Origin: Bradyrhizobium sp. CB3481
Lineage (GTDB): Bacteria; Pseudomonadota; Alphaproteobacteria; Rhizobiales; Xanthobacteraceae
Direction of reading: 5' to 3'
DNA: 64,000 bases
Assembly (NCBI RefSeq): GCF_029714305.1
Contig: NZ_CP121647.1
Span: 5,972,501-6,036,500 of the forward strand
Positions within the stretch are counted from its first letter, which is position 1. Each line of letters opens with the position of its first letter. The translations under genes and the position numbers were made by a program. The notes below the pieces were generated by a model that made no database searches, was not told where the DNA came from, and saw only the letters and a program-made list of their open reading frames with translations. Positions 2,693-41,749 of this stretch are shown piece after piece.

Positions 2693-4741
2693 GTGGCGAA
2701 GCTGCCTCATTCTCTTATTTCTGCCTTACCGCTAACGTCAAACGGCGCCATGGCTGGAATTTTCTCTACTTTGATGCTGTCGGCTGCGCTGATTGCCGGC
2801 GCGCTATCAGGCGCGTTCACGTCCGCGGCGCAAGCCCAGACCGCCGGCGGCTACGGGCCGCTGCAGATTTCCTGGGAAGTGCGCAACCGCTTCCGCCTGT
2901 TCCGCGAGGAGCGGGATTTCCTGCTGCACGCCGAGACCGGGCGCGGCCGCAGCGTGCTGGCTTCCGAGCAGGCATTGGCGATTCAGAGCGACGGCCGCGG
3001 CTGGGCGCGCAACACCGTGAACCGCCTCTGCATCGATCTCGCCGGCCGCGTCAGCGAGCCCTGCACGCGCGACAACGTCAAGGAAAGCTACCTGACACCG
3101 ATCGATCATCCTGTCGTGATCCGCCTGACCGGACCCGTGCCGGTCGGCGCGACCTGCGCGTGGACGGTCGATGATGGCGACGGCCCGCAGACGTCCGCCT
3201 TCGACTGCGCCGAGCCGGTCAACCTCCGCGTCCGTTACGGCCGCACCACGGTGGTGACCGCCGACGTATCGAGCTCGGAAGGCAGCCAGCGCGTCTTCAC
3301 CGAGATCGCGGTGCGCGACATCTTCATTGCCGGCCTCGGCGACAGCATCGCTTCCGGCGAAGGCAATCCGGACCGGCCGGTGGCGCTCGCCGATGAAGGC
3401 TTTTGCTTCCGCTCCTATCTCGGAACGGCGGCTGCGCAATATTATCGGCCGAGCCGCGCGGGCTATAAGGGCGGACGCGCCTGCGAGGCGCCCGATTCGC
3501 TCGCAGTCTGGCAACGGCAAAGCGCGCTCTGGTTCAACCCGGCCTGTCACCGCTCGCTCTACAGCTACCAGACGCGCACGGCGCTGGCGCTCGCCATCCG
3601 ATATCCGCACATCGCCGTGACCTATCTGCCGCTGGCCTGCACCGGCGCCACCATCGCCGATGGCCTGTTCGGCTCGCAGCGCGCCCGCGACTGCCTGCCG
3701 TCGAAATCCGGCAGCGGCGCGTGCCAGGGCACGGTCAACGGGCAACTCGCCGAGCTGCGTGAAGCCGTTGGCGCCGCAAAACGCCGGCAAGCGGATCGCC
3801 AGCTCGATCTGGTGCTGCTGTCGATCGGCGCCAACGACATCTATTTTTCAGGCCTCGTCGCCGACGTCATCGTGGATACCGCGACCGAGCGCACGCTGTT
3901 CCGGCGCAGCGGCGTGATGGCCTCTGTGGACGATGCACGCAGTGCGATGGCGCGGGACCTGCCGCAGGGCTTTGCCAAGCTTCGCGAGGCGCTCAAGCCC
4001 CTTGTCGGCGGCGACCTGTCACGGGTCGTCTACACTGCCTACGCCAATCCGACGCTGGCCAATGGCGGCGCGCCCTGCCCGGGCGGACGCGCCGGCTTCG
4101 ACATTCATCCCTCCTTCAACGCGCAGCCGCAGCGCCTCGCCGCCGTCTCCAGTTTCGTCGAAAACGAATTCCTGCCGCAGCTGCGGGCGTTGGCGCTTTG
4201 CGAGGGCGGCATCCTGTGCCGCAATCCGCGCGCCGACCGCATGACCTTCGTCGACGGCCACCAGATGGCCTTTGCCAACCACGGCTTCTGCGCGCGCGCC
4301 GAAAACGATCCCGAATTCGACCGGCAGTGCTTCTCGGCGAGGGGCGACAGTTTCGATTCCGATATCGTCACGGCCGCGAGCCAGCCGATGCTGTGCGGCC
4401 GCAGCGCCGGCGAGTATCGCGCCTATCTGCCGCGCGCCCGCTGGATCCGCGATGCCAATGACAGCTACTTCGCCGCGATGACCTATCCGCAGGGCCTGCC
4501 GACGTCGCAGCAGCCGTCCGATATCCATGACGCGACCTGGGGCGTGCTGTCGGCAGTCTATGGCGGCGCGGTGCATCCGAGCGCCGAGGGCCACGCCGCG
4601 ATGGCTGACGCCGCGGTGCCGGCCGCCGCCGCCGTGCTGCAGCTCGATGCGGCCGTGCCTGAAGTCACCTCGCAGCCGGCTGCGCCGATCCCGGTGGCGC
4701 CGGACGTGCCGCGGCCACCCGGCAGAACCGGACTCAATTAG
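2693..4741 (+). CDS. Secreted SGNH/GDSL-family hydrolase, large
   Basis: 682 residues if started at GTG 2693, or 663 from the in-frame ATG at 2750; both keep a signal peptide ending in SAAQAQ. The SGNH blocks are present: [13 protein letters not shown] with nucleophile Ser218, the Gly block in the middle, [12 protein letters not shown] (block III Asn) and [12 protein letters not shown] near residue 630 (block V His). The roughly 200-residue N-terminal part has paired Cys and no enzyme motif I recognise, and the C-terminus is a Pro/Val-rich tail. It is presumably a periplasmic or secreted esterase acting on a lipid or acetylated glycan; the substrate is unknown. The stop codon overlaps the stop of the convergent DUF2147 gene. 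Confidence 0.75.
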
Positions 4742-5352
4742 CGCGCGGGCGCCGGCGCAGCAGGTGCTGGCGCCGGGGTGACAGCCTTCTTGACCGCAGG
4801 CGTCTTCGCCGGAACCGTGGGCGGCTTCATCGCCGCGGCATGCGCCGGCAGATATTTTGCGATGATCGCGGGATCGACCTGGGCTAGCTCCGTGTCCGGC
4901 AATCGCGTCCAGACCTCATCCCTGCCGAGCAGCGAGATGCCGAGATAGCCGCGCATCGTCAACGTCTGTCCATCGGCACTGAGCGTCATCTTGGCCTTGT
5001 AGATCTTGCCATCGCGCGGATCGAGCACGTTGCCGTTCTCGTATTTCAATCCGTCGCGCTTCATGTCGCGGATGAAGGACATCCCGAGCCAGGACGCATC
5101 CTTCCGATCGTCGGTGCATTTCGCGCAGGTCGGATTCGGCGGATCGCCGGGCTCGAGAAACAGCTTGGCAAACACGCCCTCATAGGCGCCGTTGCGATCG
5201 ACCACCAGGAACCAGCCGACCGGCTTGCCCTTCTCGACCTTCTGCCACAACCCGGCCGCGGAAGGTTCCACGGGCTGCGCGGCCAGTTCGCTGGCAAACG
5301 CGAGCCCAAACACGATCGGAAGTATCAGTTGAAATCCGGCCAGCTTGCGCAT
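4738..5352 (-). CDS. Exported DUF2147 protein
   Basis: A 204-residue protein with a signal peptide ([25 protein letters not shown]). The mature part matches DUF2147: [17 protein letters not shown] near the start, [16 protein letters not shown] (a CxxC pair), then a beta-rich stretch [19 protein letters not shown] and [16 protein letters not shown]. The last 40 residues are a low-complexity Ala/Pro/Lys tail. DUF2147 proteins are secreted lipocalin-like domains of unknown function. ATG at 5352 is chosen because CAGGTG lies 6 bases upstream; ATG at 5358 is the alternative. Its stop (4738-4740) overlaps the stop of the SGNH hydrolase gene, so there is no room for a terminator between the two convergent genes. 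Confidence 0.75.
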
Positions 5353-5428
5353 CGTCATCACCTGATCAAACCCTCTAAATGAATGGGCGCAGACTAAGGC
5401 CATTTCGCGGACGGTTCCAGCGACGATT

Positions 5429-5444
5429 GCCGGGTGTTCCCGGC
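5429..5444. repeat. Small perfect hairpin between the DUF2147 and reductase genes
   Basis: GCCGGG-TGTT-CCCGGC lies 15 bp before the reductase stop on the plus-strand map, hence just after that gene on the minus strand. It has no T-run, so a terminator role is possible but weak. Confidence 0.35.
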
Positions 5445-5479
5445 GCGCGCCCGCGAGGCGAACTGTCTTGTTTTGGGAT

Positions 5480-7177
<1,698 letters not shown>

Positions 7178-7498
7178 TTAGGCCTGCCGTTCAGGCGTCG
7201 AGACCACGAGGCCGTCGAGGTCGTCGCTCACCTTGATCTGGCAGGACAGGCGGGAGTTCGGCCGCACGTCGAAACCGAAATCCAGCATGTCTTCTTCCAT
7301 CGGCGTCGGCGAGCCGACCTTCTCGCGCCAGGCTTCCTCGACATAGACGTGGCAGGTCGCGCAGGCGCAGGCGCCACCGCATTCGGCTTCGATGCCGGGA
7401 ATGGCGTTGCGGATCGCGGCTTCCATCACGGTCGCGCCGTTCTCGACTTCAATGGTTCGTTTTTCGCCCGTGTGGTCGACAAAGTGGATTTTGGCCAT
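7178..7498 (-). CDS. [2Fe-2S] ferredoxin, adrenodoxin type
   Basis: A 106-residue soluble electron carrier. The cluster ligands are the first three Cys in [13 protein letters not shown] (C-x5-C-x2-C, residues about 39-48) and Cys about 85 in LSCQIKV. The start [21 protein letters not shown] and acidic helix ([19 protein letters not shown]) match the adrenodoxin/putidaredoxin group that feeds P450s and Rieske oxygenases and also works in Fe-S assembly. No P450 or hsc genes are in the window, so the partner is unknown; the ferredoxin reductase at 5480-6508 is one candidate. Confidence 0.9.
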
Positions 7499-7636: not shown

Positions 7637-8014
7637 TCAGGAACGGCGCAGAAACCCTTCGATCACGGCCCGTGCTTCCGCGACCGCCTCGCCAAGCCCT
7701 GCGAGCGCGGCCGATGGATCGGTGCCGCCGGCGATCGCCGCCTCCAGCCGCTCCGCGGCATCGGCAACGGCAAAAGCGCCGATCGCGCGGGCCGATCCCT
7801 TGAGCGTGTGCGCCAGCGCGCCTGCATCCGAGGGATGGACCATGAGCGCCTGGACCAGTCTTGCTGATTGGGCCGAGAACATCGTCAACACTTCCTGCTC
7901 GATCCCGGCATCGCCGAGCGTCATGCGTTGAAGGTGTTCGAAATCGATCGGCCCGCCGCCGGGCGCCAGCGGTGGCGATGGCATCCATTCTACCCGTTCG
8001 AGATGAAGCGGCAT
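7637..8014 (-). CDS. Orphan histidine phosphotransfer (HPt) protein
   Basis: A 125-residue helical protein with one HPt domain over about residues 25-122. The phospho-acceptor is His69 in the motif ALAHTLKGSARAIGA, and the usual VLTMFSAQSARLVQAL helix lies before it. There is no kinase, receiver or output domain, so it should shuttle phosphate between a hybrid kinase and a response regulator encoded elsewhere. The start is uncertain: ATG at 8014 or ATG at 7984. It is transcribed divergently from the giant pole-type protein across a 411-bp region containing a CtrA box and GANTC sites, so cell-cycle control is possible. It does not look like ChpT, which is a longer dimeric pseudokinase. Confidence 0.8.
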   Translation of the reverse strand: MPLHLERVEWMPSPPLAPGGGPIDFEHLQRMTLGDAGIEQEVLTMFSAQSARLVQALMVHPSDAGALAHTLKGSARAIGAFAVADAAERLEAAIAGGTDPSAALAGLGEAVAEARAVIEGFLRRS

Positions 8015-8226
8015 GGCAAGGGTCCGGCTCGCCCCTCCGCACTGATTCTTCGAGAGGCATAATCATCCACAAGCAACCATGCGGGGGTTAACGGAACGTT
8101 CTCAGAATCCGGCGCAATTTTGCCGCATTTTAGCCCGTAATCAGACGGGTTTTCCGTATCAGTTCCAAAAATCTGTGCATTTAGAAGAACTTATGGGACA
8201 GCGCTGAAGAGCGCTGTTAACGATGA

Positions 8227-8241
8227 TTAAGAATGTATTAA
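8227..8241. promoter_or_regulatory. CtrA-binding box, TTAA-N7-TTAA
   Basis: TTAA at 8227-8230 and 8238-8241 with exactly seven bases between matches the full CtrA consensus of alphaproteobacteria. An extra TTAA six bases before it (8217-8220) extends the site. It lies 185 bp upstream of the giant gene start, near the middle of the divergent region. Confidence 0.65.
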
Positions 8242-8383
8242 TCGCGGCCATTTCATTCGTATCGGTCAACCAATAGGATGTTGGCGGATGTGTGCGGACA
8301 AGCTGCGCCGATGGGTACGCTTGCATCGCAGGGGGTATGAATCCGGCTTCGAGCTTGCAGGGGGCTTCTTGCAAGAACGGCTG

Positions 8384-8409
8384 GACGCGTAGTTAAGACG
8401 CGTAGTTAA
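8384..8409. repeat. 13-bp perfect tandem duplication in the 5' leader
   Basis: GACGCGTAGTTAA occurs twice in a row (8384-8396, 8397-8409), 16 bases before the giant gene start codon. It places two TTAA half-sites 9 bases apart. It could be a recent slippage event or a second, imperfect CtrA site. Confidence 0.7.
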
Positions 8410-8425
8410 GAGGGCTCGGACTGAC

Positions 8426-11400
8426 ATGGCGAACAATCCGAAGAAGGTCAAAGATCCCACTGAAGTTGCGCTGTCTGCCATTCAGGAAGCGCTCAACATC
8501 AGCGACACCGCCGTTGACCCCAGCCGAAATTCGATCGGCGGCGAAATCGTCCCGCCAAGCATGCCCTCCGGCGCGCCCGCCTTTCCCGAAACCCCGTTCG
8601 ATGCGCGCCCGAACGCGGACCGTCCGGTGTTCGATTCGATCGAGGAGCCGCGCAGCCCCCGTCGCGCCGCCAATGACGATCGCGAAACCATCGGACAGAT
8701 TCTGCAGGCCATCCAGAAGAACCGCCCTGCCCGCAGCGTCTACACGCTCGCCAGCATCTTCGGCGGCGTCTGGATCGTCGGCTGCGCGCTGTTGACCGCG
8801 GCGTTCCTGCCCTCGTTGCAGGCGGCGATCGGACAAAGCGGCGGCGTGCTGGTCTTGGCCGGCCTTGCGTCGTTGTTCTTCGCGCCGGTGCTGCTGTTCT
8901 ACTTCCTCGCCAGCCTCGCCTGGCGCGGCCAGGAAATGCGGATGATCGCGCAGTCGATGGCGCAGGTCGCCATCCGCTTCTCCGAGCCGGAAGGCGCAGC
9001 CGCCGATTCCATGGTGACCGTCGGCCAGGCGATCCGCCGCGAAGTCGCCGCGATGGGCGACGGCGTCGAGCGCGCCATCGCGCGCGCCGGCGAGCTGGAA
9101 ACGCTGGTCGCGAATGAAGTCGCCGCGCTCGAGCGCGCCTATACTGATAACGAGGTGCGCATTCGCGCGCTGCTGCAGGACATCGCCCATCAGCGCGACA
9201 ACCTAGTCGGCCAGGCCGAGCAGGTGCGCAGCGCCATTTCCGGGGTTCAGATCGACCTGCGCCACGACATCGCGCTGATCTCGGACGCGATCGCCTCGCG
9301 CGTCGACGAGGTCGCAAAAAGCATCACCGGCGCGCTGGAAGAGCGCGGCCAGCACATCACGAGCGCGCTCAGCCATGCCGGCGACAACATGATCCTCGCG
9401 CTCGGCGAGCGAGGCGGCGATCTGCTCGATCGCCTCGAGGAAGCCAGCGCCGAGACCACGCGCGCGGTGCTCGACGCTTCCGAGCGGCTGACCACCAGCC
9501 TCAACTTCAAAACCGGACACGTCCACGACGAGTTCGTCGATCTCGCCGATCGCGTCCACGAAATGCTGAACGAGCGCATCGACCGCATCACGAGCGAATT
9601 CGAGCAGCGCTCCTCGACCATCGTCGACGGCATCTCCGACCGCACCGAGCAGGTCCACGACTCCTTGAAGAACTCTTCGGACTCGCTCCTGCTCGAACTC
9701 GAGCTGCGCTCCGGCGATCTCGTCAACAAGATCGACGAGGCCGGCAACCGCCTCGCCAGCCGCATCCTCACCTCCGGCGACAAGGCGAGCGACGCGCTCG
9801 ACGTGACCGTGAACACGCTGGTCGCCAAGGTGATCAGCCAGACCGAAAACGCGCATGACGGCCTCGCGCTGCAGATGAGCGCGTTCGACGAGTTGGTGAA
9901 GAACCAGGGCTCGGAGCTTGCGGAAAAATTCGCCCGCGACAGCGGCACGCTCGGCGCGCTGATCACGCGCCACATTTCGGAGTTCGACCGCACCGTCAAG
10001 ACGTTCGGCGGCGAGATCGTCGAGCGCATGGGCGCGCGGACCCAGGAAATTGCCGACAGCCTGAAGAACTACGTCGACACGTTCGATACCCGCCTGACCT
10101 CGAACAGCGGCGAGATCACCGCTTCGCTCGATCAGCGGCTGCTGCAGTTCGAAACCACGCTCGGCAACCGGGTCGACCATCTCGACGCCTCGCTCGACAC
10201 CAAGATCAGGCTGTTCGACGAAACCGTCGACGGCCGCCTGAAATCGCTGGAAACGACTTTCGACACCCGCGCCAAATCCGTCACCGAGACCATCGACGGC
10301 CGCATCAGCACGCTGACCGGCTCGCTGACCGACGGTGCCGCGCAGGCGATCCAGTCGATCGACCAGCGGCTCACCCTCCTCACCTCCTCGCTCACCGAGG
10401 GCACCGCGCAGGCGATTGCAGCGGTCGACCATCGCATTGCCAACGTCACCGAAACGCTCGACGGCCGCAGCGCTTATCTGACCGACACCATCCAGGCACG
10501 GTTCCAGGAAATCCATCAGGGCATCGAGACGCGCGTCGGCGACATCGCCAGCAGCATCGAGACTAAGGTCGGCGCTTTCGCCAGCGGTCTCGAAGGCCGC
10601 GTCGGCGACATTGCCAGCGGCCTCGAGACCCGGGTCGGCGGCATCGCCACCGATATCGATGCCCGCGTGGCGCAGTTCGAGGATCTGCTCGGTTCGCGCA
10701 TCGAGGCGGTGGCGGGCCGCATCGAAAGCAGCGGCCGGCAGGCCAGCGAAGACATGATGTCGCGCGCCGAAATACTGTCGTCCACGATCAAGTCGCATGT
10801 CGAGGACGCCGAGCGTTCGCTGACCAACCTCGTGGTCAATACCAGCGAGACCATCCAGACCGGCGCGCGCACCGCGCAGCAGGCGCTGCTGACGGTCTCC
10901 TCCGATGTCGGCGCGCAGCTGAAACTGACGTCGGCCGAAGTCGAGGCCGCGCTCGTCGCGGTCGGGACGACTGCGGCGAGCTCGATCCTGACCAGCAGCC
11001 GCGACGCCCAGACCACGCTGGTGTCGGCCTCATCAGAGGCGGCCGCGCAGGTCAAGTCGCTGGCCGCCGACGTCGAACGCACCCTCTCCGCGGCCGGCGA
11101 TGCCACAGCTGCGTCGGTTCTCGCCGGTGCGCGCGAAGCGCAGACCACGCTGGTGACGGCGTCCGCCGATGCGGCAAACCACGTCAAGTCGCTCGCCTCC
11201 GATGTCGAGCGTTCGCTGTCGATCGCCGGCACCGCGACCGCCGAAGCCGTCACGGCAGGCGCCCGCGCCGCACAGAGCACGCTGGTCGCCGCCTCCACGG
11301 AAGCCGCCGATCAGGTCAAGTCGCTCGCAGCCGACGTGCAGCGGTCGCTGTCGATGGCCGGCAATGCCACCGCCGAGGCGATCACGGCGAGCGCCCGCGA

Positions 11401-13753
11401 GGCCCAAAGCACCCTGATGAGCGTGTCGGCCGAGGCGTCGAACCAGGTCAAGTCGCTTACCGCCGACGTCGAGCGGTCGCTGTCGATGGCCGGCAATGCC
11501 ACCGCCGAGTCGATCACGACGGGGGCGCGCGAGGCGCAGAACACGCTGATCACGGCCTCGTCCGAAGCCGCCAACCACGTCAAGTCGCTGGCGATCGACG
11601 TCGAGCGCACGCTGACCGCCGTCGGCTCCGAAACCGCCGCCACCCTCCTCACCACCGCGCGCGAAGCGCACAGCTCGCTCGCCACGACCTCGGCCGACGC
11701 CGCCAGCCAGATCAAGGCGATCGCCGCCGATATGGAGCGCTCGCTCGGCGTCGTCACCGCGACCACGACCGACACGATTCAGACCACCGCGCAGAACGCG
11801 CAGGGCGCGCTGGTCGCCGTGACCAACGAGGTCACATCCAAGGTCAAGTCGACCACGGCCGATATCGAACGTTCGGTGCTCGCCGCCACCAGCAATTTCG
11901 GCTCGACGATGACCGGCAAGACCGACGAGATCGTCACCTATGTTCAGCAGCAGACCGACCGCTTGGCGCAGATCGTGGACAGCCGCCGCGGCTCGCTGGT
12001 CGAGGCGCTCGGCAGCAAGACCACCCAGCTGACGACCGATATCGACCGTGTCACCGCCGACGCCCTGAAGTCGATCGAGACCCGCGGCCAGGCGTTCTCG
12101 CAATCGATGGCGACGCACGGCTCAGAAGTCGCGCGCACGATCACTTCTGCGGGCGACCTCGCCACCGGCGCGGTAGCCAAATCGCTGAAGGACCTCGAGC
12201 AGGCCTCGCGCTCGGCCATCGACCAGTCGCGCCAGGTATCGATCGCCGCCGTCACCGAGATGCAGGAGACCAGCAAGATTCTGCGCACGGACACGGTGGC
12301 CCTGTTCGAGCGGCTCCGTGAAGGCAACATCCTGCTGCAGGAAGTGCTGACCGGCGCGCACGACAACCTCAACTCGCTGGAGCGCGCGCTGGTGACCCGC
12401 GTCGCCGACTTCGTCTCCGCCATGAACGACGTCACTGCCCGCAACGGCGTTGCCACGCAGACGCTGGAAGACCAGCTCAGCGTCTTCAACAACAAGACCT
12501 CGAAGGCGCTGGAAAATCTCGGCTCGCTGTCGAGCGAGTTCGAGAAGCACGGCAAGGCGCTGATCGACGCGGCCGGCGTGGTCGAACAGGCCAACCGCTC
12601 CACCACGGCTTCGGTCGCCGATCGCAAGTCGCAGCTCGAATCGCTCGTGACCACCATCGACCTGCGTACCACCGACCTCGACCAGCGCCTGTCGCGCTTC
12701 ACCGGCCTGCTCGACGAATCGCTCGCCGCGGCCGAAGAGCGCGCCCGCGACATCGCACGCGTGGTCGCGGAAACCGCCGGTGCCGGATCGGCTGCGATCA
12801 GCCGCCAGTTCGAGGCGGTGCGCACCGCGGCCGAGAACGAGCGGCAGCAGACCCTCGATGCGATGAACGACCTGTACCAGCAGAGCACCCAGGAAACGGA
12901 TGCGATGTTCAAGCAGTCGACCGAGAAGTTCGGCGAGATGGTGCAGGCCATGAAGCAGATGGCGGCCGAGATGCACAACGAGCTCGAGGCGACGCGCAAC
13001 GAGCTGCGCCGTGGCGTGCTCGAAATGCCGCAGGAGGCCGCCGACAACACCGCGCAGATGCGCAAGGTGATCGTCGACCAGATAGAGGCACTTGCCGAGC
13101 TCAACCGGATCGTCGCCCATCACGGCCGCGGCCTCGACGTCGTGACCTCGGGCCGCGGCGCCGCGCAGCGTCAGGACGAGCCCGTGATGGCGGCCGCCAA
13201 CGCCCGCAACGAGGTGCGCATGCGCGATGTCGGCAGTGCATCGACCCTGCCGCCGCCGGATCTCGGCATGCCGGCGCCGCGCCGCGCCGAAGCGCCGCCC
13301 GTCAGCCCGGTGAGCCAGGATTCCGGACGCGACGGATGGCTATCCGACCTGCTCCATCGCACCGATGCCGGCGCCGGGCAGCCTCCTCCGCGCGGCCGCG
13401 CACCGCAGCCCGCGGCCAATCCGCTGGAGTCGCTGTCGCTCGACATCGGCCGGCTGATGGACCGCAACCTCGCCGCCGAGATGTGGGATCGCTACCAGCG
13501 CGGCGAGAGCAAAGCGTTCACCAAGCGCCTCTACACGCCGGCGGGCCAGAAGGCGTTCGACGAAGTCTCGCGCAAGTACCGCGCCGATCGCAGCTTCAAG
13601 CAGACGGTCGACCGCTACATCGCGGAGTTCGAACGGCTGCTCGACGAAGTCGCGCGCGAGGACCGTGGACCGCAGGCGCTACGCGGCCACCTCACCTCCG
13701 AGACCGGCCTCGTCTACACCCTGCTCGCCCATGCGGCAGGCCGCCTGGGGTAA
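8426..13753 (+). CDS. Giant membrane-anchored helical-repeat protein, growth pole ring (GPR/RgsE)-like
   Basis: A 1775-residue protein. Residues 1-100 are Pro-rich and probably disordered. Two membrane helices follow (about 104-129 and 139-166), then some 1450 residues of Ala/Ser/Thr/Glu/Asp-rich amphipathic helix with apolipoprotein-like 11-residue periodicity, including nine 44-residue repeats encoded at 10805-11992. After a Pro-rich linker (about 1590-1660) comes a compact C-terminal domain with MWDRYQRGESKAFTKRLYT and RSFKQTVDRYIAEFERLL. Size, the N-terminal hairpin and the apolipoprotein-like rod match the Agrobacterium growth pole ring protein (RgsE in Sinorhizobium), which organises polar growth, and resemble the smaller Caulobacter TipN. 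The assignment rests on architecture, not an alignment. The upstream CtrA and GANTC motifs fit cell-cycle expression. Monocistronic, with a terminator at 13779-13806. Confidence 0.75.
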   Translation: MANNPKKVKDPTEVALSAIQEALNISDTAVDPSRNSIGGEIVPPSMPSGAPAFPETPFDARPNADRPVFDSIEEPRSPRRAANDDRETIGQILQAIQKNRPARSVYTLASIFGGVWIVGCALLTAAFLPSLQAAIGQSGGVLVLAGLASLFFAPVLLFYFLASLAWRGQEMRMIAQSMAQVAIRFSEPEGAAADSMVTVGQAIRREVAAMGDGVERAIARAGELETLVANEVAALERAYTDNEVRIRALLQDIAHQRDNLVGQAEQVRSAISGVQIDLRHDIALISDAIASRVDEVAKSITGALEERGQHITSALSHAGDNMILALGERGGDLLDRLEEASAETTRAVLDASERLTTSLNFKTGHVHDEFVDLADRVHEMLNERIDRITSEFEQRSSTIVDGISDRTEQVHDSLKNSSDSLLLELELRSGDLVNKIDEAGNRLASRILTSGDKASDALDVTVNTLVAKVISQTENAHDGLALQMSAFDELVKNQGSELAEKFARDSGTLGALITRHISEFDRTVKTFGGEIVERMGARTQEIADSLKNYVDTFDTRLTSNSGEITASLDQRLLQFETTLGNRVDHLDASLDTKIRLFDETVDGRLKSLETTFDTRAKSVTETIDGRISTLTGSLTDGAAQAIQSIDQRLTLLTSSLTEGTAQAIAAVDHRIANVTETLDGRSAYLTDTIQARFQEIHQGIETRVGDIASSIETKVGAFASGLEGRVGDIASGLETRVGGIATDIDARVAQFEDLLGSRIEAVAGRIESSGRQASEDMMSRAEILSSTIKSHVEDAERSLTNLVVNTSETIQTGARTAQQALLTVSSDVGAQLKLTSAEVEAALVAVGTTAASSILTSSRDAQTTLVSASSEAAAQVKSLAADVERTLSAAGDATAASVLAGAREAQTTLVTASADAANHVKSLASDVERSLSIAGTATAEAVTAGARAAQSTLVAASTEAADQVKSLAADVQRSLSMAGNATAEAITASAREAQSTLMSVSAEASNQVKSLTADVERSLSMAGNATAESITTGAREAQNTLITASSEAANHVKSLAIDVERTLTAVGSETAATLLTTAREAHSSLATTSADAASQIKAIAADMERSLGVVTATTTDTIQTTAQNAQGALVAVTNEVTSKVKSTTADIERSVLAATSNFGSTMTGKTDEIVTYVQQQTDRLAQIVDSRRGSLVEALGSKTTQLTTDIDRVTADALKSIETRGQAFSQSMATHGSEVARTITSAGDLATGAVAKSLKDLEQASRSAIDQSRQVSIAAVTEMQETSKILRTDTVALFERLREGNILLQEVLTGAHDNLNSLERALVTRVADFVSAMNDVTARNGVATQTLEDQLSVFNNKTSKALENLGSLSSEFEKHGKALIDAAGVVEQANRSTTASVADRKSQLESLVTTIDLRTTDLDQRLSRFTGLLDESLAAAEERARDIARVVAETAGAGSAAISRQFEAVRTAAENERQQTLDAMNDLYQQSTQETDAMFKQSTEKFGEMVQAMKQMAAEMHNELEATRNELRRGVLEMPQEAADNTAQMRKVIVDQIEALAELNRIVAHHGRGLDVVTSGRGAAQRQDEPVMAAANARNEVRMRDVGSASTLPPPDLGMPAPRRAEAPPVSPVSQDSGRDGWLSDLLHRTDAGAGQPPPRGRAPQPAANPLESLSLDIGRLMDRNLAAEMWDRYQRGESKAFTKRLYTPAGQKAFDEVSRKYRADRSFKQTVDRYIAEFERLLDEVAREDRGPQALRGHLTSETGLVYTLLAHAAGRLG
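10805..11992 (+). repeat. Nine in-frame 132-bp repeats (44 residues each) in the giant gene
   Basis: The landmark codons for D-V-E-R-S/T-L recur at 10805, 10937, 11069, 11201, 11333, 11465, 11597, 11729 and 11861, always exactly 132 bp apart. A typical unit reads VERSLSMAGNATAEAITASA then REAQSTLMSVSAEASNQVKS. 44 residues is four 11-residue turns. The first and last units are the most diverged, the middle ones (11201-11600) the most alike. Confidence 0.9.
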
Positions 13754-13806: not shown

Positions 13807-14017
13807 TCTTTTAAGCGCGAAAGATATTCGGTGAACCGCCCCTCCGTAGAACCACGGTATTCGCGGCATCATGCAGGCCCGAATTTGCCGGATTCCGACA
13901 TGTATCGCGCCAGGGAACACGCGTTTCGCATCCGTTAGCTTCATTGCTACCAAGAGTTTTTACGAGAGATTCTTGATTTGAGGATTAGCTTTCCGCCCCG
14001 TGACGGGACGAGATGGC

Positions 14018-16681
14018 ATGAACTTGACCAGCAGGGCGTGGGACTTGCTCGCCGTCGGCGAATGCACGACACCGCACGGCCGCGCGCTCGTGAGCGAGCA
14101 GTTCCGCATCCTCACCAACCAGATTCCGATTCTCTATGCCGTGATCCTGCTCGACGCCGTCAGCGTCGGCTTTGTCCTGCCCTCGTCTGTCGATCCTTGG
14201 CTGAGATTTGCGGTGCCCGGGGTGCTTCTGACCGTCAGCGTCATCCGGATGATCCAGTGGATCAGGATGCGCGGGGTGCAGCTCTCACCGGAAGATTCCT
14301 ATCGCTTTTTGGCGCGGATGCGGATTCTTTCCGCCGCCCTGCCCGCAGGCTTTCTGATCTGGACCTTGGCGCTGATCGAAGCCGTGGATCCCGCGCTTCG
14401 CGCGCCGATCTCGCTTCTCGTCTTCATGGGCTGCATCGGCGCCGCTTATTGTCTCGGCATCTTCCCGGCCGCGTCGCGCTTGTGTTTGTTCATTGCGGGG
14501 CTGCCGCTCGCACTGCGCCTGCTCGCGTCCGGCGAGCCGCTTCTGGTTTGCATCGGCATCAACCTCGGCCTGCTGCTGGTGCTGTTCGTCCGGATGATCA
14601 ACACGAATTTCGGCAATTTCGTCCGCCTGATCGAAACCCAGGCCAAGGTTGCCGAGGAGGCCGAGCGGGCCCGTGCTGCGCACACCTATCTGACGGAAGC
14701 GCTGGATGTCGTGCCCGAAGGCCTGGCGATCTTCGACAAGGATGACCGGCTGGTGCTGTGGAACCGGCAATATCCGAGGCTCTATGCTTCGAACGCGACC
14801 GCCATCGTTCACGGCGCGCGCTTCGAGGACATTCTTCGTGCCGGCCTCAAGCATCAGCAATATGCCGATGCGGTCGGACGGGAGGAGGAATGGCTGGGGC
14901 AGCGCATGGCGCGCCACACCATGCCGCAAAGCTCCCACGAGCAGCAATTGCCGGGCGACAAATGGGCGCGCATCGAGGAGCGCCGCACCGCCGACGGCGG
15001 CAGCATCGGAATCCGCATCGACATCACCGACCTGAAACGCAGCGAAGCCTCGTTCCGCCTGCTGTTCGAAGAAAACCCGCTGCCGATGTGGGTGGCCGAT
15101 GCGGCGACGCGGCGGCTGCTGGCGGTCAACGCCGCGATGTGCCGCCATTACGGCTATCCGCGCGAGGAGCTGCTTTCGATGTCCGAGCATGATCTCGGCG
15201 CGTACGGCCGCTCCGTGGCGCAGCCAGCCCGGTCACCGCAGGAATCCGTGATCCACAAGACGTCCCGCGGCGATCGAATCGAGGTCCTGATTGAATCGCG
15301 GCCGCTGCCGTATCAAGGCAAAGCCGGGCTTGTTTCGGTGGCGTTCGACGTCACCGAGCGCAACCGCGCCGAGCAGCAGATCCGCTACCTGGCCTCGCAC
15401 GATCTCCTGACCGATCTGCCCAACCGCGCCGCGTTCGACGCGCGTCTCTCGATGCTGATGCAGCATTCGGCCGAGGCCGGCGCCAGCTTCGCCGTGCTTT
15501 GCATCGATCTGGATCGCTTCAAGGAAGTCAACGACCTGTTCGGGCATTCCACCGGCGACGCCGTGCTGCGGGAAGCCGGCCGGCGGCTGCGCCAGGCCTG
15601 CCAGGACGCCTACCTCGCGCGCGTGGGCGGCGACGAATTCATCGCCATCACCGAGCAGGTGCCCCTGCCCGGCGCCGCCGAGCTGGTGGCCAGCCGAATG
15701 CGCGAGGCCTTGAGGCACCCGATCGAAGTCGACGGCCGCGCGCTCGATATCGACCTCAGCATCGGCGTGGCGCTCTACCCCCGCGATGGCGACAATGCCG
15801 CCTCGGTGCTGGCCAACGCGGATGCGGCGCTCTACCGCGCCAAGAAGGAAGGGCGCGGCGTGACGCGGATCTTTACCCGCGCGATGGACCGGCAGTTGCG
15901 GGATCGCCGCGCCATGGAGCACGATCTGCGTTCGGCCGTCGAGAACAACGAGCTGTATCTGGAGTTTCAGCCGCAACGTCATCGCGACGGCAAGATATGC
16001 GGGTTCGAGGCGCTGGTGCGCTGGCAGCATCCGCTGCGCGGCCTGGTGATGCCCGGCGACTTCATCCCGGTCGCCGAGGAAAGCGGCTCGATCGCGAAAA
16101 TCGACGAATGGGTTTTGATGGAAGCGTGCCGGCACGCCGCATCGTGGGACGAGACCGTGCGCATGGCGGTGAACGTCTCAGCCGCCCAGTTCCGCCGGGA
16201 AAATCTCGAGCATCAGGTTCGCAGGGCGCTACGCGAGAGCGGCCTGTCGCCGTCCCGGCTCGAACTGGAGATCACCGAAGGCGTCCTGATCGAGGACATC
16301 TCGCGCGCCAGCCAGACCCTGAAATCCCTCAAATCGCTCGGCGTCATGATCGCGCTCGACGATTTCGGCACCGGCTACTCGTCATTGTCCTATCTGCAGG
16401 CGTTCCCGCTCGACCGCATCAAGATCGACCGCTCCTTCGTCGCGGCGCTGGGCTCCAGCGCCCGCTCGCTGTCGATCGTGCGCGCCGTGATCGGGCTTGC
16501 CCACGGACTCAACGTTCCGGTTCTGGCCGAGGGCGTCGAAACCAATGAACAGCTCGCGATATTGATGCGCGAGCGATGCGACGACATGCAGGGCTATCTG
16601 ATCGGACGCCCGCACCGGGCCGAGCTGTATGCCGAGCACATGAAGACCGACGGCGGCTCGCGCCTCAAGACGGCGAGCTGA
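14018..16681 (+). CDS. Membrane PAS-GGDEF-EAL cyclic-di-GMP protein
   Basis: 887 residues. Six membrane helices (about residues 35-205) are followed by a short coiled linker and two PAS domains (about 225-335, with LDVVPEGLAIFDKDDRLVLWN, and about 345-455, with ENPLPMWVADAATRRLLAVN). Then come a GGDEF domain (intact GGDEF near residue 537, RVGGDEFIAIT) and an EAL domain (intact EAL near 664, GFEALVRWQHP, with DDFGTGYSS further on). Both catalytic signatures are complete, so it could make or break cyclic di-GMP depending on the PAS and membrane input. ATG at 14018 (MNLTSRAW) is preferred over GTG at 14000 because GGACGAG lies just upstream. It follows the pole-type gene, but a terminator separates them. 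Confidence 0.9.
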   Translation: MNLTSRAWDLLAVGECTTPHGRALVSEQFRILTNQIPILYAVILLDAVSVGFVLPSSVDPWLRFAVPGVLLTVSVIRMIQWIRMRGVQLSPEDSYRFLARMRILSAALPAGFLIWTLALIEAVDPALRAPISLLVFMGCIGAAYCLGIFPAASRLCLFIAGLPLALRLLASGEPLLVCIGINLGLLLVLFVRMINTNFGNFVRLIETQAKVAEEAERARAAHTYLTEALDVVPEGLAIFDKDDRLVLWNRQYPRLYASNATAIVHGARFEDILRAGLKHQQYADAVGREEEWLGQRMARHTMPQSSHEQQLPGDKWARIEERRTADGGSIGIRIDITDLKRSEASFRLLFEENPLPMWVADAATRRLLAVNAAMCRHYGYPREELLSMSEHDLGAYGRSVAQPARSPQESVIHKTSRGDRIEVLIESRPLPYQGKAGLVSVAFDVTERNRAEQQIRYLASHDLLTDLPNRAAFDARLSMLMQHSAEAGASFAVLCIDLDRFKEVNDLFGHSTGDAVLREAGRRLRQACQDAYLARVGGDEFIAITEQVPLPGAAELVASRMREALRHPIEVDGRALDIDLSIGVALYPRDGDNAASVLANADAALYRAKKEGRGVTRIFTRAMDRQLRDRRAMEHDLRSAVENNELYLEFQPQRHRDGKICGFEALVRWQHPLRGLVMPGDFIPVAEESGSIAKIDEWVLMEACRHAASWDETVRMAVNVSAAQFRRENLEHQVRRALRESGLSPSRLELEITEGVLIEDISRASQTLKSLKSLGVMIALDDFGTGYSSLSYLQAFPLDRIKIDRSFVAALGSSARSLSIVRAVIGLAHGLNVPVLAEGVETNEQLAILMRERCDDMQGYLIGRPHRAELYAEHMKTDGGSRLKTAS

Positions 16682-40156: not shown

Positions 40157-41749
40157 ATGTCCCGTTTCAAGTCATCGCTGTTACGCACCGGCCTGCTTGC
40201 GGGCCTGCTGGGCTTCGCTGCCACGGGCCTGGCCTTCGCCGAAGCCCCGAATGCGGATATCCGCACCGGCATGCAGGCGCCGCCGCCGGAAGAGCGCGTC
40301 GCGCTGGTCATCGGCAATTCGAATTACCAGACCGCGCCAAAGCTCGCCAATCCCGGCAACGACGCGCAATCCGTCGCACAGCTGTTGAATTCGGCGGGCT
40401 TCGAGGTGACCCAGGCGACGGACCTGACGCGCGGCGAGATGATCAAGGTGGTTCAGGACTTCTCCTCCAAGGTCGGCGAGCGCGGTCCGCGCACCGTGGC
40501 GATGGTCTACTATGCCGGCCATGGCGTGCAGGTGGCCGGCGAAAATTACCTGCTTCCGGTCGATGCGAAGATTTCCTCGCCGTCCGACCTCGACGGCAAT
40601 TCGATGCGGCTGGTCGACGTGATGGGCACGCTGGAATCGATACCGAGCCGGATGCGCATCGTCGTGCTCGATGCCTGCCGTAACAATCCGTTCCCTGAAG
40701 CGAGCGACAACGGACGCGGACTTGCCATCGTCGATGCGCCGAACGGCTCGATCGTCGGCTACTCGACGGCCCCGGGAATGGAGGCACAGGATGGTGACGG
40801 CAACCACAGCCCGTACACGTCCGCGTTCCTGAACATCGCGCGCGTGCCGAACCTGCCGATCGAGCAATTGTTCAAACGCGTCCGCCTCGAGGTGAACAAC
40901 GCGACCAACGGCCGCCAGACGCCGTGGGAAAGCTCGTCGCTCACGTCTGATTTCTATTTCTTCGGCGATACCATCATGGCGGCGGGCCGCGCGCCGGATC
41001 GTACCCCGATCATGCAGATGGCGTCGAACCTGCCCTCGCGCTCGGTGCGCCAGGCCTACGATTATGTGCTGTCCGAGGGCTCGCCCGAATATTATGAGGA
41101 GTTCATCCGTCTGTATCCGCATGACCCGTTGTGCGACCACATCCGCGTGCTGCTGGGCAACATCCAGGTGGCAAAGGCTTGGCATAAGGCCGTGCTGGCG
41201 AACTCGCCGTTCGCCTACAAGACGTTCCACGACAGTTTTTCCAATACCCCCTACGCCAAGTCCGCGTTGCACCTGCACGCCGCGCCGAAGGCCGTGCCGC
41301 TGATGCAGTTCACGCATCTGGCGAAGCAGTCGCCGAACTTCAAGCCGGGCAATTTCGGTTCCCATGCGCACATGCCGATGTCGTCGAAGATCGTCACGCT
41401 ACCCGCCAAGGGCATGAACGCGAACAACCCGATCCACGGCGGCTTCAACAAGGGTAATGCAGATAAGGTCATGGGTCTGCCTGGCAAGGGCCACTCCATG
41501 CCCGGCAATTTCGGCAGGAACGGCGGCAAGTTCGGCAAGGTCACGTCCCTGCATCCGAGAATGGACAACCATCCGATGCGGATGAACCGACCGATGATGA
41601 TGCGAAGGCCGATGATGGGTAGCGGGCCGCGTCATTTCGGCAGCCGTATGGGTGGCGGAGGCTTCAGCCGCTTCGCCGGCCCGTCCCGCGGTTCATTCGG
41701 CGGCGGTGGGTTCGGCAGAGGGTTCGGTGGAGGTTTTGGACGGCGCTGA
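40157..41749 (+). CDS. Secreted caspase-like (C14) protease with a Gly/Phe/Arg-rich tail
   Basis: 530 residues with a signal peptide (MSRFKSSLLRTGLLAGLLGF ... AFA). The caspase p20 domain (about 45-270) has VALVIGNSNY at the start, catalytic His122 in YYAGHGV and Cys174 in DACRNNPF; SPYTSAFLN and SSLTSDFYF complete the fold. Residues 270-400 are helical. The last 130 residues are His/Met/Asn-rich, then RFAGPSRGSFGGGGFGRG and similar Gly-Phe-Arg units. It is a bacterial orthocaspase-type enzyme, predicted to cut after a basic residue, exported to the periplasm or beyond. AGGAGG precedes ATG 40157. Confidence 0.85.
   Translation: MSRFKSSLLRTGLLAGLLGFAATGLAFAEAPNADIRTGMQAPPPEERVALVIGNSNYQTAPKLANPGNDAQSVAQLLNSAGFEVTQATDLTRGEMIKVVQDFSSKVGERGPRTVAMVYYAGHGVQVAGENYLLPVDAKISSPSDLDGNSMRLVDVMGTLESIPSRMRIVVLDACRNNPFPEASDNGRGLAIVDAPNGSIVGYSTAPGMEAQDGDGNHSPYTSAFLNIARVPNLPIEQLFKRVRLEVNNATNGRQTPWESSSLTSDFYFFGDTIMAAGRAPDRTPIMQMASNLPSRSVRQAYDYVLSEGSPEYYEEFIRLYPHDPLCDHIRVLLGNIQVAKAWHKAVLANSPFAYKTFHDSFSNTPYAKSALHLHAAPKAVPLMQFTHLAKQSPNFKPGNFGSHAHMPMSSKIVTLPAKGMNANNPIHGGFNKGNADKVMGLPGKGHSMPGNFGRNGGKFGKVTSLHPRMDNHPMRMNRPMMMRRPMMGSGPRHFGSRMGGGGFSRFAGPSRGSFGGGGFGRGFGGGFGRR

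Follow-up and report, generated by a model that had tools for sequence, protein, structure and literature searches.

How growth at a single pole is placed and timed in the Hyphomicrobiales that lack MreB is an open question, for which RgsE of Sinorhizobium meliloti and GPR of Agrobacterium tumefaciens are leading candidate scaffolds. GPR is described as forming a ring at the growth pole; near its N terminus two membrane helices are predicted, helix with PF01442 makes up about 1700 residues, and the C terminus is essential (PMC8262873). RgsE, with a published length of 2089 aa, is reported to be 42% identical to GPR, and the same account concluded that Rgs proteins and MreB are mutually exclusive (PMC7327166). 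TipN of Caulobacter crescentus has been called similar to GPR (PMC8546619) and, at 882 aa, analogous to it (PMC13170164).

The gene considered here lies at positions 8426..13753 (forward strand) of the window, the whole 64,000-nt stretch of Bradyrhizobium sp. CB3481 DNA that was analysed. Its reading frame is intact, with an ATG at 8426, a stop ending at 13753 and 1775 codons, and is present as a single copy in the 8.04-Mb genome, which is one contig. A chance reading frame is dismissed, as confirmed by the 80 named loci encoding the protein that we kept (70 with Bradyrhizobium in the record title); the closest Bradyrhizobium relative is 92% identical in its best segment and the top seven are 88 to 92% identical. 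We consider it highly probable, as the best explanation of the locus as a whole, that the 1775-aa protein is the Bradyrhizobium orthologue of RgsE/GPR and thus a member of a known family.

Orthology with RgsE and layout of the protein

The S. meliloti record CP090106.1 contains a gene of 6270 nt, encoding 2089 aa and annotated as 'kinesin', so the mis-annotation that the initial annotation had foreseen for this family does occur in rgsE itself. (The record is labelled pSymB of S. meliloti Ak57, yet it is 3.72 Mb long and carries rgsE, folP and hemF; it is probably a mislabelled chromosome.) Compared with this protein, the Bradyrhizobium sequence is 36% identical over 326 aa in the hairpin region (E 3e-57) and 37% identical in the C-terminal region (E 2e-54), each value coming from a single comparison; along the rod the similarity is just 25% and may be driven by composition. 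The two genomes also have a common gene order, in which a ferredoxin gene and an Hpt gene precede the divergently transcribed rgsE. Because the similarity lies at both the hairpin and the C-terminal ends and the gene order is common, we identify the protein as the orthologue of S. meliloti RgsE. The initial annotation had read the gene as a polar-growth organizer of the RgsE/GPR type, a reading that hung on likeness at precisely these two ends and for which it had proposed a comparison of neighborhoods with Sinorhizobium; the homology to RgsE supports it, and the polar role itself would follow by analogy.

The anatomy that had been proposed, a giant reading frame with an N-terminal hairpin, a helical rod and a small C-terminal domain, was borne out by hydropathy, Pfam, AlphaFold2 and conservation. 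All parts are encoded on the forward strand. The N-terminal region (residues 1-81; 8426..8668) is of low complexity and is probably disordered past about residue 24, as judged from its sequence. It is followed by a segment (residues 82-188; 8669..8989), delimited by hydropathy, alignments and AlphaFold2, that comprises a conserved signature starting with ANDD, the membrane hairpin and an EMR...EPE stretch. Hydropathy gives one hairpin at about residues 104-166, with helices at 104-126 and 140-166, and the AlphaFold2 model of residues 82-411 (37-row alignment; mean pLDDT 82.6, pTM 0.33) has helices at 104-126 and 140-185 and then an unbroken helix of 218 residues, 193-410, that runs to the end of the model. 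The helical rod, with hendecad (11/3) periodicity, spans about residues 193-1570 (9002..13135) and is defined by its indels, phase and hydrophobic period as well as by the model as far as residue 411. PF01442 (apolipoprotein A1/A4/E) matches six stretches of the protein with 181.6 bits against a cut-off of 90.

Toward the end of the rod, alignments and modelling define a conserved C-proximal helix module (residues 1517-1566; 12974..13123), in which proline 1535 is kept in 77 of the 77 proteins where the module was found. Beyond it lie a proline-rich linker (about residues 1571-1665; 13136..13420), placed by indels and by low model confidence, and a C-terminal helical domain (about residues 1666-1775; 13421..13750), supported by profile, model and a strongly conserved sequence. 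A second AlphaFold2 model (residues 1514-1775, 32 sequences; mean pLDDT 69.5, pTM 0.47) consists of a long helix, the low-confidence proline-rich linker and the helical C-terminal domain at 1666-1775, whose pLDDT is 67 to 82 per ten-residue block to about residue 1703, its first third, and mostly 85 to 93 beyond.

We propose that the two N-terminal helices anchor the RgsE orthologue in the inner membrane, leaving the long helical rod in the cytoplasm, and that the C-terminal domain serves as a conserved docking end. Its presumed role, modelled on RgsE and GPR, would be to gather at the growing pole and to scaffold there the cell-wall and envelope machinery that drives polar elongation.

The divergent Hpt gene and the CtrA-type box

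Divergent from rgsE is a gene for a stand-alone histidine phosphotransfer (Hpt) protein of 125 aa (7637..8014, reverse strand), which is recognized by Pfam Hpt (33.2 bits, cut-off 24.6) and, in alignment, keeps the phospho-accepting His; next in the conserved order, as identified by gene order comparison, is a (2Fe-2S) ferredoxin gene (7178..7498, reverse strand). The genome has four places where an Hpt domain was found, two of them in short frames (141 and 205 aa), one of which is this neighbor. Its closest solved relative is PDB 2ooc (E 1.6e-9; with a profile, 1.3e-17 versus 4.3e-7 for the next), which the structure table calls only 'Histidine phosphotransferase' and which we take to be Caulobacter ShpA, a regulator of stalk growth. 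The neighbor is like ShpA-type proteins in having a single Hpt domain with the phosphorylated His. Of 24 aligned Hpt proteins, 23 have this His, the exception being that of a Sphingomonas locus, L133; a linked Hpt outside that alignment, at L138, also lacks it. In the proteins partnered with these two His-less Hpts, the search for the C-proximal helix module gave no match.

Within the Bradyrhizobium group, the Hpt gene is divergent and upstream of rgsE in 77 of 81 loci; the remaining four are two contigs that begin just before rgsE and two rgsE frames cut before the C-terminal domain, where the Hpt was found. Across the Hyphomicrobiales it is divergent and within 4.5 kb of rgsE in 121 of 186 genomes, with divergent cases occurring in 40 of the 50 families. 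Elsewhere in this set it lies upstream on the same strand (6 genomes, one family), elsewhere on the contig (1) or on another contig (16), and 42 of the 186 genomes are without an Hpt among the matches listed. Outside the Bradyrhizobium set, a ferredoxin gene of this kind was counted by hand within the retrieved stretch at 59 of 62 Hyphomicrobiales loci. On its other side, CB3481 rgsE is followed directly by a gene for a PAS-GGDEF-EAL protein (14000-16681, forward strand), a gene not annotated at that place in S. meliloti, and further along the window is a gene for a caspase-domain (Peptidase_C14) protein (40157-41749, forward strand; 152.6 bits).

The 411-bp intergenic region shared by rgsE and the Hpt gene (8015-8425) contains TTAA-N7-TTAA, the CtrA consensus, at 8227..8241 (no strand assigned). 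The window has no other exact copy. Genome-wide there are 48, and the motif is no commoner than its reversed control (48 versus 46); by arithmetic, one exact box would fall in a region of 411 bp about once in 400. The weight of the box rests on its conservation and its enrichment over shuffled sequences. An exact box stands in every one of the 80 Bradyrhizobium-group loci that have 420 bp of upstream sequence, CB3481's own genome included, and for the first 40 of these loci shuffles give an expectation of 0.05 exact boxes in all. Among 63 further loci (62 from Hyphomicrobiales and Sphingomonas L133), a site with at most one mismatch occurs in 42, versus 6.0 expected from dinucleotide shuffles, and an exact box in 7, versus 0.43 expected; in 20 loci of other orders the former number is 5, versus 2.2 expected. 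In S. meliloti the exact box is absent, and the nearest sites have one mismatch. In a comparison with control windows, such a site was counted in 43 of the 63 loci and in 14 of 754 windows, which is too easy a control because these windows are mostly coding; the shuffles are fairer.

A site with at most one mismatch is also found in 4 of 5 loci in which the Hpt is on the same strand, and in 9 of 10 loci without a nearby Hpt (four of the ten being one family with the same site), compared with 29 of 47 with a divergent Hpt. Since the box persists where no Hpt is close by, it would seem to be a feature of rgsE rather than of the Hpt-rgsE pair, and the idea of a box serving the pair is weakened accordingly. 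From the conservation of the site we suggest that CtrA may bind and control the rgsE promoter and that transcription of rgsE is probably tied in this way to the cell cycle.

Whether the Hpt protein works with RgsE is a separate matter. The three genes may simply have stayed together on a stretch that is rarely rearranged, the Hpt gene being a passenger without joint function, and to this we give an even chance. The ferredoxin, which has no expected role in polarity, is linked too, so a joint function cannot be read from synteny by itself, and the keeping of the box in the absence of a nearby Hpt fits a passenger as well. Linkage nevertheless extends beyond the order: by comparison of coordinates by hand, at least 16 of 101 other alphaproteobacterial genomes bearing the domain have a divergent adjoining Hpt (His-less L138 among them), and the same arrangement occurs in a plasmid record named as Sphingomonas. 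Among the 20 loci retrieved from other orders, whose flanks are limited, a divergent Hpt is present in 7 and a ferredoxin in 2 (L139 and L153), and at L152 a hybrid kinase with an Hpt domain of its own lies directly upstream of the RgsE-like gene. The frame of this hybrid histidine kinase (3153-5867 of that locus, forward strand) ends about 30 bp before the RgsE-like frame on the same strand. We infer from this wider linkage that the Hpt protein may be a working partner of RgsE. With a phosphotransfer gene back to back with rgsE and a conserved CtrA-type box between them, a link from the cell cycle to polar growth is directly testable.

Register and length changes of the helical rod

Hydrophobicity along the rod repeats every 3.665 residues, and the 1257 residues of 261-1517 include no proline. 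In nine further rods, each at least 750 residues long, the period is 3.65 to 3.665 and there are 0 to 3 prolines; the period is 3.625 in a Hyphomicrobiales rod of 434 residues and 3.565 to 3.605 in eight short relatives of other orders. At 0.15 nm per residue, residues 193-1570 would extend about 207 nm if they formed one straight helix.

Comparison of 77 full-length Bradyrhizobium-group proteins (112 nearest-neighbor comparisons) shows that the rod changes length mostly in steps of 11 residues. Its 157 raw gaps, 147 of them multiples of 11, correspond to 118 distinct indels. The length is divisible by 11 in 110 of these (110 of 113 when only those of 11 residues or more are counted), matching the helical period of 11/3 residues. 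Outside the rod, multiples of 11 make up 1 of 114 raw gaps within residues 1-199, the N-terminal region, and 0 of 284 within the final 215 residues. Pairs more than 60% identical from six other families gave 119 multiples of 11 among 137 rod gaps of at least 11 residues, gaps that are not independent of one another; the 18 exceptions include a 40-residue gap between sequences 98% identical.

These steps could also arise by unequal exchange between DNA repeats of 33-nt period, with no selection for helix register, and we regard this as possible but on balance doubtful. Exchange between repeats can supply multiples of 11, because 99 of the 110 such events sit where neighboring DNA copies are at least 60% alike; the rod DNA also resembles itself more when shifted by 11, 22 or 44 codons than when shifted by 10, 12, 21, 23, 43 or 45. 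For the same reason, selection for all of the 11-residue indels is unsupported on its own. Exchange accounts less readily for what is missing from the rod. Small indels are common elsewhere in the same genes, as the 398 raw gaps of the N- and C-terminal regions attest, yet gaps of fewer than 11 residues are rare in the rod (6 raw, 5 distinct), and three of the distinct ones fall past the C-proximal module, in the linker. Furthermore, the commonest registers (distance modulo 11 of 2, 6 or 9; 47 of 77) are neighbors in helical angle and not in residue count. The scarcity of small rod indels is thus a better sign of selection than are the multiples of 11.

A conserved leucine after the hairpin is separated from the proline of the C-proximal module by as few as 426 and as many as 2296 residues among 71 Hyphomicrobiales sequences, yet the phase of this distance at 11/3 residues per turn clusters over all 71 (R 0.60). 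With one sequence for each of 30 families, R is 0.45 (Rayleigh p 0.0019, a value made optimistic by shared ancestry); at 3.5 and 3.6 residues per turn p is 0.68 and 0.09, and when the period is scanned freely R reaches 0.41 elsewhere. Both R values are inflated by relatedness. These alignments offer moderate support for deep conservation of the rod register. We accordingly picture the rod as an amphipathic helix of 11-residue periodicity. Its apolar face tends to hold the same register all the way from the membrane hairpin to the C-terminal module, so that length changes mostly by whole sets of helical turns. The 11-residue rule offers a sharp test of how a protein on the 200-nm scale is built.

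Spread of the family, MreB and comparison with known systems

A profile of the C-terminal domain matches 188 of 199 Hyphomicrobiales genomes, once each, and 172 of the 187 genomes for which frames were tabulated have a frame of at least 800 aa. A broader profile matches 105 of 289 genomes drawn from the class, 101 of them outside Hyphomicrobiales; distant RgsE homologues in other orders have already been reported (PMC7327166). In all 20 fetched loci of other orders the protein has one or more hydrophobic segments close to its N terminus, usually a pair, and one relative (L139) is an 880-aa protein with a membrane segment, the C-terminal domain and an Hpt neighbor.

MreB was not found in the CB3481 genome at E 1e-40, as expected of a polar grower. 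Among the 199 Hyphomicrobiales genomes, however, 22 of the 23 that bear MreB also carry the C-terminal domain (the exception is 88% complete), so the mutual exclusion concluded for Rgs proteins and MreB does not hold for the RgsE C-terminal domain in this sample, and the family is not bound to polar growth without MreB. Since both are present in these 22 genomes, the notion of one having taken the place of the other deserves re-examination. Three genomes of one family (G054, G096 and G131), which are not among the MreB bearers, have an Hpt; in these the C-terminal domain was not found at E 0.001 (a weak match in G096 has E 0.056), and two of the three are less than 90% complete. Frames in the MreB-bearing genomes reach at most 1498 aa, and the 20 of 22 that are at least 800 aa have a median of 1105.5 aa, compared with a median of 1812 aa in 165 other genomes (Mann-Whitney p 4.5e-6, without correction for relatedness). 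Because 33 of these 165 also have frames of 800 to 1250 aa, some of them perhaps cut at contig ends, the relation between length and MreB is one-way at best, and we do not retain giant length as a consequence of MreB loss.

The observations can be drawn into one joint reading, unlikely though we think it is in its entirety. RgsE/GPR would belong to an old alphaproteobacterial polarity module made up of a hairpin-anchored helical scaffold, a back-to-back phosphotransfer protein of ShpA type and cell-cycle control by CtrA. The ancestral scaffolds would have been short, with a period near 3.6, and in the lineages of the Hyphomicrobiales that lost MreB the rod would have lengthened in steps of 11 residues, its register staying fixed, to become one helix about 100 to 350 nm long, an adjustable ruler for the polar growth zone to which the Hpt protein would bring phosphorelay signals.

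The protein family is known. A tie of RgsE/GPR to an Hpt neighbor, to CtrA control or to 11-residue quanta is absent from the available portions of PMC8262873, PMC7327166, PMC9022086, PMC8546619, PMC13170164, PMC10259793, PMC10127582 and PMC7822825, as is the co-occurrence of MreB and the domain, contrary to the published exclusion; the word CtrA does not occur in the available text of PMC8262873, PMC7327166 and PMC7822825. The founding GPR paper (PMC6561148) stands outside this set, and the rod indel rule, the divergent Hpt gene and the CtrA-type box may be in print elsewhere.

That the protein is a giant apolipoprotein-like one of another trade, such as a lipid-droplet coat or a ZorA-like defense tail, and resembles RgsE only in helix composition, is very improbable: RgsE itself matches ZorA below threshold (69.8 bits, cut-off 190) in its helical part only, but the 1775-aa protein has no NCBIfam match at E up to 1, the ZorA model included, and its homology to RgsE sits in the hairpin and C-terminal modules and is accompanied by a common gene order. 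As an RgsE orthologue it can be set beside three described proteins. TipN of C. crescentus is likened to GPR in published descriptions. GPR (Atu1348 of A. tumefaciens) differs in its length of 2115 aa and shares the layout, a likeness drawn likewise from its published description in PMC8262873, as Agrobacterium-named records were not among the matches listed (including the best 120 of 559 and the best 120 of 395). RgsE (SMc00190 of S. meliloti) differs in having 2089 aa instead of 1775, a rod of different length and sequence, and CtrA-type sites that are at best one mismatch from the consensus. It has in common with the Bradyrhizobium protein the hairpin, a rod period near 11/3, the C-terminal domain, the divergent Hpt gene and a ferredoxin gene nearby.
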